Part shown: positions 9,626-19,584 of the stretch, in pieces
Numbering within the stretch: position 1 is the first letter of the stretch
Layout of the letters: each line of letters starts with the position of its first letter
The notes under the pieces: model-generated
The model's input: the letters and a program-made list of their open reading frames with translations, nothing else
What the model was told of the DNA's origin: nothing
The model's database searches: none
Translations under genes and position numbers: made by a program
IMG/VR virus record: IMGVR_UViG_3300025099_000196
Span: 1 to 20,059 of that record
Source of the DNA: a virus
Direction: 5' to 3' (one strand)
DNA length: 20,059 nt

Positions 9626-9648
9626 ATTATATTAAATCTTTAAGATTT
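9626..9648 (-). promoter_or_regulatory. Possible promoter with palindromic operator before the HTH-repeat gene
   Basis: A TATAAT box (9631-9626) lies just upstream of the HTH-repeat gene. Two nt upstream of it is a perfect 15-nt palindrome, AAATCTT-A-AAGATTT on the minus strand (9648-9634). No -35 box is present at the right spacing. The segment is also the last codons of the ligase subunit gene, so chance is possible. Confidence 0.3.
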
Positions 9649-10376
9649 GTGATTATTGTTATGCCCTTAGATTGGGCGGCTCTTGTTTTTGCGGATTCGA
9701 TACCGCTTTCGTTAACTAGAATATTTACATCTTTTGTCATACTACTTTTCACAAGATAGCCCTTTTGTTCCAATATTTTCTTGGCGGCTGCCTTTGTAGA
9801 GTAGGATTTTAACTTACCTGATATACATACTATGCCTTTGTCTGCACTTTTAGATTCAATCTTGGTAAGTTGCTGCCATCTAAAAGGTAATCTATCATAG
9901 CCGTCAGTAAAATCTTCTATTAACCAGTTCAGTAAATTATCTGTAGCTTTCGGACCGAGACCTGCTTCTTTGCATACTTCTTCGTCTATTTCTGCAATAT
10001 TTCTTATTTTTGAGCAAATTTTCGCTGAAGCAGTTCGTCCGATTAGCTTTATAGAGAAAGCAGGTAGTAAGTCCACTAAGTCAGTATTCTTACTGCTCTG
10101 TATTTCTCTGTGTAATTTAACTGCTAATTTCTCGGAATTTAAAATATCTATCATCATCTCTAAGGGTAGTTGGTATAAGTCATATATACTATTTATCTCT
10201 AGTTTTTCAATAGTGCGGGGTCCGAGTCCCTTAATTTTGAGAGTCTTTGCAAAATGTTCAATCATTTTATGAGTTCTACCACCACAAGCAGTACGAACGC
10301 AAAAGAGTTGATCCTTTTCCCACTCCAATATCGAGCCACAGGCTGGACAATTTGTTGGTGGTAAGATTTGTTGCAT
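9627..10376 (-). CDS. NAD+-dependent DNA ligase, C-terminal subunit (Zn finger, HhH, BRCT)
   Basis: The 249-aa protein holds only the DNA-binding half of a bacterial-type ligase. The zinc finger is C10, C13, C26 and C31 (CPACG...FCVRTACGG). Helix-hairpin-helix elements follow (KIKGLGPRTIEKLEINSIYDLYQL, FSIKLIGRTASAKI, GLGPKATDNLLNWL). The BRCT domain is at 178-247 (GIVCISGKLKSYSTKAAAKKILEQ in two parts, ending TNLKDLI). It has no adenylation domain; that is encoded at 12431-13429. I start it at ATG 10376, because the longer frame runs through the promoter, and AGAGGG lies just upstream. The two proteins probably assemble into one enzyme, as in T5-like phages. Confidence 0.9.
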   Translation of the reverse strand: MQQILPPTNCPACGSILEWEKDQLFCVRTACGGRTHKMIEHFAKTLKIKGLGPRTIEKLEINSIYDLYQLPLEMMIDILNSEKLAVKLHREIQSSKNTDLVDLLPAFSIKLIGRTASAKICSKIRNIAEIDEEVCKEAGLGPKATDNLLNWLIEDFTDGYDRLPFRWQQLTKIESKSADKGIVCISGKLKSYSTKAAAKKILEQKGYLVKSSMTKDVNILVNESGIESAKTRAAQSKGITIITNLKDLI

Positions 10377-10404
10377 AGTCCCTCTCATTTTTTTATATAC
10401 ATAT

Positions 10405-10433
10405 ATTATAACAAAAATCAGGTGCCATGTCAA
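10405..10433 (-). promoter_or_regulatory. Consensus sigma-70 promoter for the ligase C-terminal subunit and HTH-repeat genes
   Basis: TTGACA (10433-10428) and TATAAT (10410-10405) are separated by exactly 17 nt. An A-rich block, AAAAAATAAATC, lies directly upstream of the -35 box. The TGA stop of the preceding gene is inside the -35 hexamer. A start near 10398 would give a leader of about 20 nt ahead of ATG 10376. Confidence 0.92.
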
Positions 10434-12274: not shown

Positions 12275-12431
12275 ATACTTCTTCATCTGCTAACGCCTGT
12301 ATTGTTACATCATCTTCAAACATTGCTCTGAAAACATCAAGTGTAGGTATCATATAGTCTACAGGACAAAATTTTCTAATAAAAACTTTATAAGCTCTTA
12401 ATAGTTGTTCTTCTGTGTATAATACTAGCAC
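12264..12431 (-). CDS. Small conserved phage protein (VLYTEEQL family)
   Basis: The 55-aa product, starting with LVLYTEEQLLRAYKVF and ending in an acidic tail, looks like a small protein family I have seen in marine phages, where LYTEEQL is a recurring opening. Function is unknown. The start is GTG 12431: it overlaps the ligase stop (TAGTG) and has GGAG 9 nt upstream. An ATG at 12494 would extend it by 21 residues of low quality inside the ligase gene. Confidence 0.6.
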   Translation of the reverse strand: MLVLYTEEQLLRAYKVFIRKFCPVDYMIPTLDVFRAMFEDDVTIQALADEEVYEH

Positions 12432-13429
12432 TAGTAGACTCTCCGAACTATACGAGGGATAATTTCCCCACTTCTTATCACTTCTACTTTGCAACCTATT
12501 TCTAGATTTAGTCCTTCGATATAAGCCATATTGTGTAAGGTTGCTTTACCTACGACAGCTCCATCTATTTCGACAGGCTCTAAAATGCCTACGGGAGAAA
12601 CTACTCCCGATTTTCCAACTTGCCAAATAACATCAATCAAGTTGGTTTCCACACCTTTCTGTATCCTCTTCAAGGCATAAGAGCCTCGTGGGTGATGTGA
12701 GGTGTGTCCCATAGAGTCGAATTCTTCTTGATTATCTATACGACAAACCATTCCGTCTGTCGGATATTCATGCCACTCTTCCTGAGTGATAACATCAAAA
12801 CCACATCGTTTTAATACTGTCATTTCTTCAGTCCATGTGGAGTAGTTATAAGGCTGCACCCCATAGGCAACAAACCTTATATTTCTACTAGTGAATTCGC
12901 CATAGTCTTTTAGATTTAACGCACCCGCAGCATAATTTCTAGCATTTTTTATGCTTGCTGGAGCTACGACTTCTCCAGTTATTTGGGTATAAGGTCGAGG
13001 CTCAAAAGGATCAGAGTGTAAGATATCAAAATCATACTCTGTAGGAACTAACAAAGCCATGTTGCTTGTTATATCCAATCCTTTTTTGCCGTCCCCTCGT
13101 GTAAGTGCTTGAACTAGTTTACCTCTAAAATAAGTTAAAGACACAGCTGCTCCGTCAAGTTTAGGCGACCAAGCCAACTTGCCTTTATAATTTTTTAGAG
13201 GGTTCTTTTGTTCGTGTTCATTTTCAAACACTTTTTGTAAAGAATACATTTGAAATAAATGAGAGATACGATTAGAACTACTACTATACCCAACTTGTTG
13301 GTAGCCACAAGAAGCTGCTAGTGAATCAAATTCTCTATCAGACATAAGGGGCTTGCCCTTGTAATATGCCTCTGATACTTCTTTTAAAAACTCTTCTAAG
13401 TCTGCTGTGGTATTGAATGTTTTACCCAT
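12431..13429 (-). CDS. ligA: NAD+-dependent DNA ligase, catalytic subunit (Ia, adenylation, OB fold)
   Basis: The 332-aa protein carries the nick-sealing half of a LigA-type enzyme. An Ia-like stretch AYYKGKPLMSDREFDSL (21-37) is followed by nucleotidyltransferase motif I PKLDG with nucleophile K90, TRGDGKKGLDIT (110-121), motif III TGEVV (151-155), IIIa SRNIRFVAYG, IV DGMVCRI (225-231) and V ALKRIQK (252-258). The OB fold ends the protein (WQVGKSGVVSPVGILEPV to GEIIPRI). It stops where the zinc finger would begin; that part is a separate gene at 9627-10376, with six genes between. It starts at ATG 13429 and overlaps the upstream gene by 34 nt. Confidence 0.95.
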   Translation of the reverse strand: MGKTFNTTADLEEFLKEVSEAYYKGKPLMSDREFDSLAASCGYQQVGYSSSSNRISHLFQMYSLQKVFENEHEQKNPLKNYKGKLAWSPKLDGAAVSLTYFRGKLVQALTRGDGKKGLDITSNMALLVPTEYDFDILHSDPFEPRPYTQITGEVVAPASIKNARNYAAGALNLKDYGEFTSRNIRFVAYGVQPYNYSTWTEEMTVLKRCGFDVITQEEWHEYPTDGMVCRIDNQEEFDSMGHTSHHPRGSYALKRIQKGVETNLIDVIWQVGKSGVVSPVGILEPVEIDGAVVGKATLHNMAYIEGLNLEIGCKVEVIRSGEIIPRIVRRVY

Positions 13430-16522: not shown

Positions 16523-16551
16523 ATTATACTAAAAATTGACAACTTTGTCAA
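16523..16551 (-). promoter_or_regulatory. Consensus sigma-70 promoter with inverted repeat, probably leaderless
   Basis: TTGACA (16551-16546), 17-nt spacer, TATAAT (16528-16523), preceded by AAAAAATAGTTC. The stop TGA of the oxygenase gene lies within the -35 box. TTGACAA-AG-TTGTCAA (16551-16536) forms an inverted repeat over the -35 region. The ATG follows the -10 box by 6 nt. Confidence 0.93.
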
Positions 16552-17090
16552 GAACTATTTTTTGCTTGTTCAATAAAGTTCTTTTCATTAAAGCTGGCAA
16601 ACAAAGTAAACCTATAACTTGGCGCTATGTGTGATGAAGGTCTTATTGTGTGTGGGATATTTCCATCAAAGAATACTACTCGACCTGGCTTAAAAAGGCT
16701 TGTATGCTCTACTTCAGTGCCTAGGTCGTTAAAGAAAAGTGTTTCTCCATAATACTCATTCTTCCACTCCATATTTATATAATAGAGCAGGGTTTTATGT
16801 TGGGGGTGGGTGTGCTGAAATTGCACTGAGGAGGGTACAGCTAGATTGATTGTAGCTGATACAAAACTTAATTCTTCTAATTGATTTCTGAGTTCGTGGT
16901 TTTGTATCCTATTAACCAAATCTAGCTGTTCCCAAGACTGTTTATCCAGCATGTGATGTAAGCAAGGATATTGTCTATGTTCAAAAACTGAGCTATCGTC
17001 CCAACCGATTTGATAATCGGCAGTAATAGCTTTCAGGTAGATATCTGAGCGAAAATCTTCCGTAAATATATTATCGTATATATCTATCAT
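16548..17090 (-). CDS. 2OG-Fe(II) oxygenase-fold protein lacking the usual Asp ligand
   Basis: The 180-aa protein matches phage 2OG oxygenases: TLLYYINMEWKNEYYGETLFFND (in parts: LLYYINMEW, YGETLFF), FKPGRVVFFDGNIPHTIRP with distal H147, and YRFTLFASF with R160. The proximal metal motif reads H93-T-H95-P-Q, with no Asp or Glu where HxD is expected. It may use three His, or an open site as in halogenases, or be inactive. It overlaps the acyl carrier gene by 20 nt, which raises the possibility that a carrier-bound acyl group is the substrate. No strong ribosome site precedes ATG 17090. Confidence 0.85.
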   Translation of the reverse strand: MIDIYDNIFTEDFRSDIYLKAITADYQIGWDDSSVFEHRQYPCLHHMLDKQSWEQLDLVNRIQNHELRNQLEELSFVSATINLAVPSSVQFQHTHPQHKTLLYYINMEWKNEYYGETLFFNDLGTEVEHTSLFKPGRVVFFDGNIPHTIRPSSHIAPSYRFTLFASFNEKNFIEQAKNSS

Positions 17091-17319
17091 CTACATTATT
17101 ATCCAAATAAGTATAGACATCGCCTACGGTGAGCATCTGCTCTGCGTATTCATCTGGTATATCAATACCAAATTCGTCTTCTAGTTCTAATACTAATTCA
17201 ACTGTATCTAGTGAATCAGCCCCGAGATCGTTTAAAAAGTTGCTGTCCATATGTATATCCATTTCGTCTATACCCATAGATTGAGCTACTAATGTAACGA
17301 GTTTTTCTTTTAAGTCCAT
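17071..17319 (-). CDS. acpP: Acyl carrier protein
   Basis: The 82-aa protein is a standard type II ACP: VTLVAQSMGIDEMDI helix I, the DSL motif with S36 (LGADSLDTVELVLELEDEFGI in parts) for 4'-phosphopantetheine, and helix IV-like MLTVGDVYTYLDNN. The length and acidity match bacterial AcpP. It should be loaded by the host phosphopantetheinyl transferase and could alter host fatty-acid flow or serve a dedicated phage enzyme. AGGA lies 4 nt before ATG 17319. Its immediate partner in the transcript is the 2OG oxygenase-fold gene. Confidence 0.95.
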   Translation of the reverse strand: MDLKEKLVTLVAQSMGIDEMDIHMDSNFLNDLGADSLDTVELVLELEDEFGIDIPDEYAEQMLTVGDVYTYLDNNVDDRYIR

Positions 17320-18858: not shown

Positions 18859-18874
18859 AATTAAAGTCCTGTTG

Positions 18875-18911
18875 ATAAAGAGAGCTGCGCTATACGCGAC
18901 TATCGCTCTCT
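18875..18911 (-). terminator. Terminator-like hairpin after hsp20
   Basis: AGAGAGC (18911-18905) pairs with GCTCTCT (18885-18879), enclosing a CGC-TATAG-GCG inner stem, followed by a short TTTAT. It lies just downstream of the hsp20 stop. The weak U-tract suggests partial termination, so some transcripts could continue into the lysis genes. Confidence 0.6.
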
Positions 18912-18924
18912 CTATCGCATAAAG

Positions 18925-19341
18925 TTAATTGATATCAATAAACTTCGGTCTGTCTTCATCTGGAATTTCAATACTTAGTTTTACTACTAGTAATCCATTC
19001 TCCATTGAAGCATCTTCTATCTTAACATACTCGCCAAGAGTGAAGATTCTACGAAAGTTTTTACTCGAAATGCCTTTGAATATGAACTTTTCGTCTTCGG
19101 CTAAGATGTCTTTGCCTTTACCTTCAATAGTAAGAGTTCTGTCATCTTGCTTAACAGTAATTCGACTTTTATCCCAACCAGCTAAATCCATTTCGATTCT
19201 ATACTGTTCATCGCCATTCTTTATTATGTTGTAGCGTGGGTAGTTTCCTGTTGTGCCGTGATTGGCAAGTTCATGTTTCATTCGGTCAAAACCGAGAAAT
19301 AGCCTGTCAAAGTCGGCTAGACTTCCTAATGTGTTTACCAT
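18925..19341 (-). CDS. hsp20: Small heat shock protein (Hsp20/IbpA family)
   Basis: The 138-aa chaperone has the alpha-crystallin domain: NYPRYNIIKNGDEQYRIEMDLAGWDKSRITVK (in parts: YPRYNIIK, YRIEMDLAGWDKSRI), TLTIEGKG, FKGISSKNFRRIFTLGEYV and the conserved A-x-x-x-N-G-L-L motif ASMENGLLVVKL. The C-terminus has an I-P-D motif. It should hold unfolded proteins, perhaps during virion assembly. AAAGGAG lies 8 nt before ATG 19341. It is the first gene after a consensus promoter and a 207-nt structured leader, and is followed by a hairpin, making it nearly its own transcription unit. Confidence 0.95.
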   Translation of the reverse strand: MVNTLGSLADFDRLFLGFDRMKHELANHGTTGNYPRYNIIKNGDEQYRIEMDLAGWDKSRITVKQDDRTLTIEGKGKDILAEDEKFIFKGISSKNFRRIFTLGEYVKIEDASMENGLLVVKLSIEIPDEDRPKFIDIN

Positions 19342-19548
19342 CGTTTTTTCTCCTTTGTCCTTATCGGTACACGCTGTGCTTCCTTATCGGTAAGCGTTAT
19401 GTTTATCTGGCAGACCCGACCACAGGTGGAATGTGGTGCTCCTAACCTCGCCCTCGGAATGTTGTATTCCTACTCGTGCCAGACATAAAGAAGTCGGTTT
19501 TGTTATTGCGGTCCGACAAGCTTCCGCTAAATGATTAAATCTTCATTC
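19342..19548 (-). ncRNA. Structured 5' leader of hsp20, candidate cis-regulatory RNA
   Basis: The leader is unusually long for this genome and holds no convincing ORF. In order: hairpin AATGA/TCATT; a possible H-type pseudoknot with stems GCGG/CCGC (19527-19524 with 19511-19508) and GTCGG/CCGAC (19517-19513 with 19497-19493), joined by an A-rich loop; a long closing stem TTATGTCTGGCA (19488-19477) with TGCCAGATAAACATAA (19412-19397); two hairpins inside it (GGAAT/ATTCC and ACCACA/TGTGGT); and ACGCT/AGCGT just before the ribosome site. This complexity suggests a riboswitch-like or temperature-responsive element. I could not run a covariance search. Confidence 0.6.
19358..19392 (-). repeat. Direct repeat in the hsp20 leader
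   Basis: TACCGATAAGGA occurs twice on the minus strand (19392-19381 and 19369-19358), 23 nt apart. The first copy forms a small CTTA/TAAG hairpin; the second ends a few nt before the AAAGGAG ribosome site. The pair could offer alternative pairings that gate translation. Confidence 0.75.
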
Positions 19549-19555
19549 ATTATTT

Positions 19556-19584
19556 ATTATATCAAAATATGACCACCTTGTCAA
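19556..19584 (-). promoter_or_regulatory. Consensus sigma-70 promoter for hsp20
   Basis: TTGACA (19584-19579), 17-nt spacer, TATAAT (19561-19556), preceded by AAAAATAGTTC. The sequence AAAAATAGTTCTTGACAA is identical to that at the 16551 promoter. Transcription should begin near 19548. Confidence 0.93.

Follow-up and report, generated by a model that had tools for sequence, protein, structure and literature searches.

The hsp20 locus and its promoter

The DNA studied here (the window, 20,059 nt) is a 20-kb IMG/VR record that carries, on its minus strand, a leader RNA before an hsp20 gene. The phage DNA polymerase encoded in the window has its top similarity to Proteus phage PM135 (45% identity) and to similar phages of about 100 kb and, judging from this similarity, the phage is taken to be T5-like. 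The initial annotation had called a noncoding leader of about 207 nt in front of hsp20, and inspection confirmed it at that place and on that strand, with a promoter upstream and the hsp20 start at 19341. The features that delimit it are:

19556..19584, minus strand: sigma70 promoter TTGACA-17-TATAAT with extended -10, TGATATAAT, 12/12 consensus match
19350..19356, minus strand: Shine-Dalgarno AAAGGAG, from the sequence
18925..19341, minus strand: hsp20 (start codon 19341-19339), 138 aa, the presumed controlled gene, Pfam HSP20 PF00011 (E 1.9e-14)

The promoter is conserved in every relative's leader displayed, and the predicted RNA start, at about 19549, gives a leader of about 208 nt ahead of hsp20. 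Both the promoter and the Shine-Dalgarno sequence resemble those of E. coli. Four more TTGACA-17-TATAAT promoters with 12/12 matches occur in the window, all on the minus strand (16551-16523, 15112-15084, 13985-13957 and 10433-10405). These sit close to gene starts and leave short leaders only; the long leader is therefore peculiar to hsp20 within the window. No ORF is conserved through it: in most leaders the frame that starts from ATGTCTGG is 7 to 51 codons long, and it shifts from one leader to another. A scan of the window for tRNA and tmRNA genes found none.

Directly after hsp20, before genes for a small membrane protein and a lysozyme, is an imperfect long hairpin (GATAGAGAGAGC..GCTCTCTTTATC, 18874-18919, minus strand), possibly a processing or termination site. 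Other minus-strand genes in the window include one for a SET-domain phage protein (11461-12027; Pfam PF00856, E 5.7e-9), a domain with the protein-lysine methyltransferase fold. The NAD-dependent DNA ligase looks split over two genes (12431-13429 and 9627-10433), the first with adenylation and OB domains (Pfam) and the second with zinc-finger-like and BRCT-like sequence by eye and no Pfam match. There are also genes for an acyl carrier protein (17071-17319) and for three proteins matching 2OG-Fe(II) oxygenase (553-1116, 1113-1619 and 16548-17090), two of these three matches being below the Pfam cut-off.

Anatomy of the leader

From 5' to 3' the leader is made up of the following elements.

19529..19548, minus strand: variable 5' hairpin, present in the minimum-energy fold
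19493..19527, minus strand: H-type pseudoknot PK1, with stem S1 GCGG 19527-19524 / CCGC 19511-19508
19517-19513 / 19497-19493, minus strand: second stem of PK1, S2, GTCGG / CCGAC
19507-19498, minus strand: A-rich loop 3 of PK1, AATAACAAAA
19478..19486, minus strand: closing helix, 5' strand ATGTCTGGC, pairs with 19411-19405 and the bases after
19471..19477, minus strand: near-invariant junction ACGAGTA, invariant in alignment A3
19456..19470, minus strand: hairpin P3, GGAAT/ATTCC, from pairing and both-side changes
19446..19455, minus strand: G-rich junction GAGGGCGAGG, GG tracts invariant and spacers variable in alignment A3
19428..19442, minus strand: possible second pseudoknot, GGAG 19442-19439 with UUCC 19431-19428 in the P4 loop
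19419..19437, minus strand: hairpin P4, loop UUCCACC, with the strongest covariation in the leader
19415..19418, minus strand: CGGG after P4, near-invariant in alignment A3
19405..19411, minus strand: closing helix, 3' strand GCCAGAT, from alignment A3 and a pairing test
19378..19395, minus strand: tandem hairpin 1 (stem, bulged A, CC/GG, loop GAUAA), from covariation
19355..19372, minus strand: tandem hairpin 2, of the same design, from covariation

The 5' hairpin and the H-type pseudoknot had both been called in the initial annotation, and both are present. The hairpin is probably accessory, because its sequence differs among relatives and it is missing from one of them (L012). The pseudoknot has the 4- and 5-bp stems and the A-rich third loop attributed to it, and it covaries across relatives. 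The multi-branched domain proposed to follow it also stands, as does its long helix, but in the family the closing helix is of about 9 bp (AUGUCUGGC with GNNAGACAU) rather than the 12 or so first given. This helix encloses almost invariant loops, the order in the branched core being closing helix, ACGAGUA, P3, GAGGG..GAGG..GGAG, P4 (loop UUCCACC) and CGGG; one variant of the ACGAGTA junction was seen, GACGCGAG in L190.

Near the ribosome site a single terminal hairpin with a 12-nt direct repeat had been described. The repeat is there (TACCGATAAGGA at 19392-19381 and 19369-19358), but it is the common top of two tandem hairpins and not part of one. Each has one purine bulge; the CC/GG upper stem becomes UC/GA in some relatives, and the loop is GNRA in relatives and GAUAA in the window's clade. 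In the records scanned, hairpins with the CC/GG upper stem are confined to this leader.

In the MTGL clade a hairpin with a bulged A, AAUG-A-CUG..CAG-CAUU, covers the hsp20 start codon (L021:5875-5905 and other hsp20 starts of the clade), and there CUG/CAG and CAG/CUG are exchanged via synonymous Thr codons (ACT..ACA versus ACA..ACT), a compensating swap that supports the hairpin in that clade. In the window's own clade the hairpin is weak (window z +1.1), and we do not propose it for the window.

Comparative evidence for the fold

Is this fold more than a drawing? The minimum-energy fold of the window leader has a z-score of -0.95, is equalled by 36 of 200 shuffles and does not display the pseudoknot. 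Since the single-sequence fold is thus no better than chance, the evidence was taken from relatives, all of them metagenomic viral contigs; pattern searches led to about 80 contigs, and 53 distinct full leaders were analysed. These 53 leaders were aligned without regard to structure, and covariation was sought de novo by scoring all column pairs with an APC-corrected G-test. For each of 300 nulls the inferred substitutions were distributed anew over the tree, in a home-made procedure that approximates the R-scape test.

The six top column pairs (E<0.05) comprise three in P4 and three in the two tandem hairpins, and the next four (E 0.17 to 1.3) also fall in predicted helices, including stem 1 of PK1. 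In P4 the three pairs have E of about 0.002, and all 5 of its 5 pairs change on both sides. The same E value was obtained for pair 19393-19381 of tandem hairpin 1 and for pair 19371-19357 of tandem hairpin 2; a second pair of the latter, 19370-19358, has E 0.045. Homologous hsp20 leaders thus covary in the stems, and the initial proposal of a complex structured leader of a new class has the support of covariation seen across more than 50 distinct leaders.

The core was also scored on 33 diverse sequences. Its structure has a covariation score of 0.293, where shuffles score 0.132 and slid versions 0.096 or less; 91% of cells are paired, and 14 pairs show a both-side change. P3 is paired in 97% of cells, with both-side changes in 3 of its 5 pairs, among them G-C to A-U. 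The closing helix is paired in 91.6% of cells, and its changes are only of the G-C/G-U type. The GGAG and UUCC tracts can pair in 98.5% of cells but are invariant, hence without covariation, and because of this invariance the pairing is neither supported nor refuted. It is plausible that they make a second H-type pseudoknot within the branched domain; that the conserved GG tracts form a G-quadruplex was also considered, and the present data do not separate the two.

PK1 was parsed automatically in 51 of 54 leaders, which gave 14 different pairings for S1 and 28 for S2, and in a test set its parse score was reached by 3% of shuffles. Both-side changes occur in 4 of the 5 S2 pairs and 2 of the 5 S1 pairs. 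In L013 and L045 the parser chose a different, poorer pairing. In the window and two sisters the first loop is of 6 nt, which is beyond the limits of the parser; their pairing was read by eye and is clear. Mean identity is 80% for the core, 63% for the 5' part, 69% for the tail and 68% for the Hsp20 protein.

Distribution

The core RNA is found on about 80 IMG/VR contigs, and all readable leaders except one (L034, see below) precede hsp20 and follow the same strong promoter. Two of the pattern searches demanded the conserved core; the searches with Hsp20 protein were independent of the RNA. One such search gave 13 close phage loci, and the same leader was present in 12 of the 12 that include the upstream region. 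Every close relative from the Hsp20-based searches that has enough upstream sequence carries either this leader (type A) or the type B leader described below, and neither occurs at four hsp20 loci that are more distant (L014-L017, 39-41% identity). When the core was searched for with a covariance model, each record gave one copy, and eight other hsp20 loci, cyanophage and pelagiphage loci included, gave no match. Searching 84,980 bacterial and archaeal genomes with the exact core pattern, which does not reach diverged versions, returned two matches; both are ascribed to chance because they lie in GC-rich DNA and the rest of the RNA is absent. A blastn search against phage records gave short chance matches only.

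Exchange of modules

In five relatives (L114/L180, L119/L181, L133/L182, L179 and L185) the core has been swapped for an unrelated conserved RNA, type B. At these loci the A-bulge/GNRA hairpins and hsp20 remain and the promoter is of the same kind; their type B RNAs share the almost invariant block TTAGAGTTGGCACTCGTWAAAATGCCCCTCTTGTATCCA. Three type B loci were scanned against Rfam, with no credible match in the leader and a few chance-level matches outside it. In one further assembly, L034, the promoter, PK1 and core are retained, and lysis-region genes come directly next.

L114:974-1203, L119:974-1203, L133:974-1203, L179:841-1075, L185:976-1203: type B leader, structured RNA of about 150 nt
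L034:822-1100: core RNA and promoter, with hsp20 and the tandem hairpins gone and a different strong hairpin after the core

The type B swap and L034 together indicate that evolution has handled two or more parts of the leader separately: module 1 (PK1 and the branched core with P3, P4 and a probable second pseudoknot) and module 2 (the two bulged-purine, GNRA-type hairpins by the Shine-Dalgarno sequence). Overall, comparison of the relatives shows a leader RNA that is conserved, is predicted to fold as described, is tied to phage hsp20 and has two evolutionarily separable modules.

Given its presence in L034 without hsp20 or tandem hairpins, module 1 may function by itself. Could it then also, or mainly, act in trans, as a small RNA set free from the leader? 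Retention of promoter and module 1 after the loss of hsp20 and of the tandem hairpins is what such a dual use would leave, but L034 is one assembly in which the core now stands before the next lysis-region gene, all other readable leaders are fused to hsp20, and no terminator follows the core. We regard dual use as improbable.

The swap bears as well on a purely mechanical role, with which the replacement of one folded domain by another would fit. According to this explanation the 5' pseudoknot and the compact domain block 5'-end-dependent decay and hold the ribosome site open, so that the leader is an mRNA stabiliser or translation enhancer; the strong promoter, the folded 5' end and the mostly open Shine-Dalgarno sequence agree with it. 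A mechanical block, however, needs no near-invariant loop sequences, and conservation is higher in the core than in the Hsp20 protein. This makes a stabiliser unlikely.

Relation to known RNAs

The manA RNA (RF01745) is a structured leader of marine phages with a possible pseudoknot; it is reported to precede various genes, those for ibpA-type chaperones among them (PMC2864571), and membership in this family had been suggested for the leader. The two are alike in being marine viral 5' leaders before an ibpA-type gene (all our matches are IMG/VR viral contigs, with hsp20 identified by Pfam), but the RF01745 model had no match at E<=10 in any of 12 records, ten of them leader-bearing. The leader RNA is not manA. 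Nor did any other Rfam family match the window leader at E<=10 or the leaders of six diverse relatives at up to E 5; at gathering level, the window and the leaders of 17 loci gave no leader match, and tRNAs were the only such matches on the window and relatives. We found no description of this RNA in the literature searched, although the Ocean-VI motif (PMC2864571), which has no Rfam entry, may be identical.

An H-type pseudoknot is shared with the preQ1-I, SAM-II and SAM-V riboswitches, and the third loop of PK1 is A-rich; PK1 differs from these riboswitches in forming just the start of a larger domain and in its long distance from the ribosome site, and it has no Rfam match. The marine phage Melnitz has a predicted glutamine riboswitch in its genome, with tmRNA as the gene (PMC9004378); this is another RNA, associated with tmRNA rather than hsp20, and nothing in Rfam matched the leader described here.

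A thermosensor had been offered as another option, and the gene class fits, since RNA thermometers such as ROSE and fourU control small heat-shock genes. For the window alone the predicted opening of the Shine-Dalgarno sequence rises from 0.27 at 4 C to 0.89 at 37 C. Over 53 leaders, however, the mean goes only from 0.54 (4 C) to 0.65 (45 C), in a fold prediction without pseudoknots and hence a weak test, and in most homologues the Shine-Dalgarno sequence is predicted to be mostly unpaired even at 4 C, and so not consistently sequestered. No Rfam thermometer family matches, the fold is far more complex than that of ROSE or fourU elements, and thermometers need neither invariant loops nor pseudoknots. 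This option is thus poorly supported, and we hold it to be very improbable.

A proposed mode of action

The leader has one typical trait of riboswitches, a conserved folded domain in the 5' leader supported by covariation, and the unpaired bases of its core are nearly fixed, as is typical of a binding pocket. Our preferred reading, in which we place moderate confidence, is that it is the 5' part of the hsp20 mRNA and that its two modules make up a structured RNA of a new cis-acting, riboswitch-like class. That it regulates hsp20 in cis is likely. Module 1 would be a compact receptor comparable to a riboswitch aptamer and, by analogy, might sense a small-molecule ligand, a suggestion we make tentatively. 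Module 2 would be the platform, or operator, that sets ribosome initiation on hsp20. With tandem hairpins adjoining the ribosome site, a sensor domain joined in cis to a translation platform would be the simplest reading. Neither a terminator nor a covarying switch helix hiding the Shine-Dalgarno sequence was found in the leader, and it is from the lack of a terminator that we infer action on translation rather than on termination.

Module 2 invites another explanation. The operator for the MS2 coat protein consists of a lower stem, a bulged A, 2 bp and a 4-nt loop. The tandem hairpins, likewise near a start codon, also have a lower stem, a purine bulge, an upper stem of 2 bp and a small loop; they differ in being present in two to three copies, in having GNRA or GAUAA loops, in belonging to a DNA phage and in having no known protein. 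The leader might accordingly be a translational operator controlled by a phage or host RNA-binding protein on the tandem bulged-purine hairpins, with module 1 as an extra binding domain. Two hairpins of one design (three in the MTGL clade) around the ribosome site would suit a protein, as would the retention of a single purine bulge while the stems covary and the restriction of hairpins with this upper stem to this leader among the records scanned. Against this, there is no candidate protein, GNRA loops often act as RNA contact motifs for which no protein is needed, and the elaborate module 1 is left unexplained. We therefore consider a protein-controlled operator rather unlikely.

Returning to the riboswitch-like reading, types A and B could be two unrelated sensor RNAs used as exchangeable cassettes before a shared operator of bulged-purine GNRA hairpins, and the whole could be a riboregulator family controlling a chaperone in infection; this wider scheme is a possibility to which we give somewhat less than even weight.

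Few structured regulatory RNAs are known from phages, and the small heat-shock proteins of phages, though widespread in the sea, are little understood in their control. The class described here has much covariation, is absent from Rfam, is phage-only in the collections searched and is module-swapped with a second uncharacterised RNA. The leader RNA is probably a built-in gene switch of a new kind. With this class one could study how RNA controls infection and how aptamer and platform domains recombine, and a ligand, if found, would reveal a cellular signal that the phage reads.
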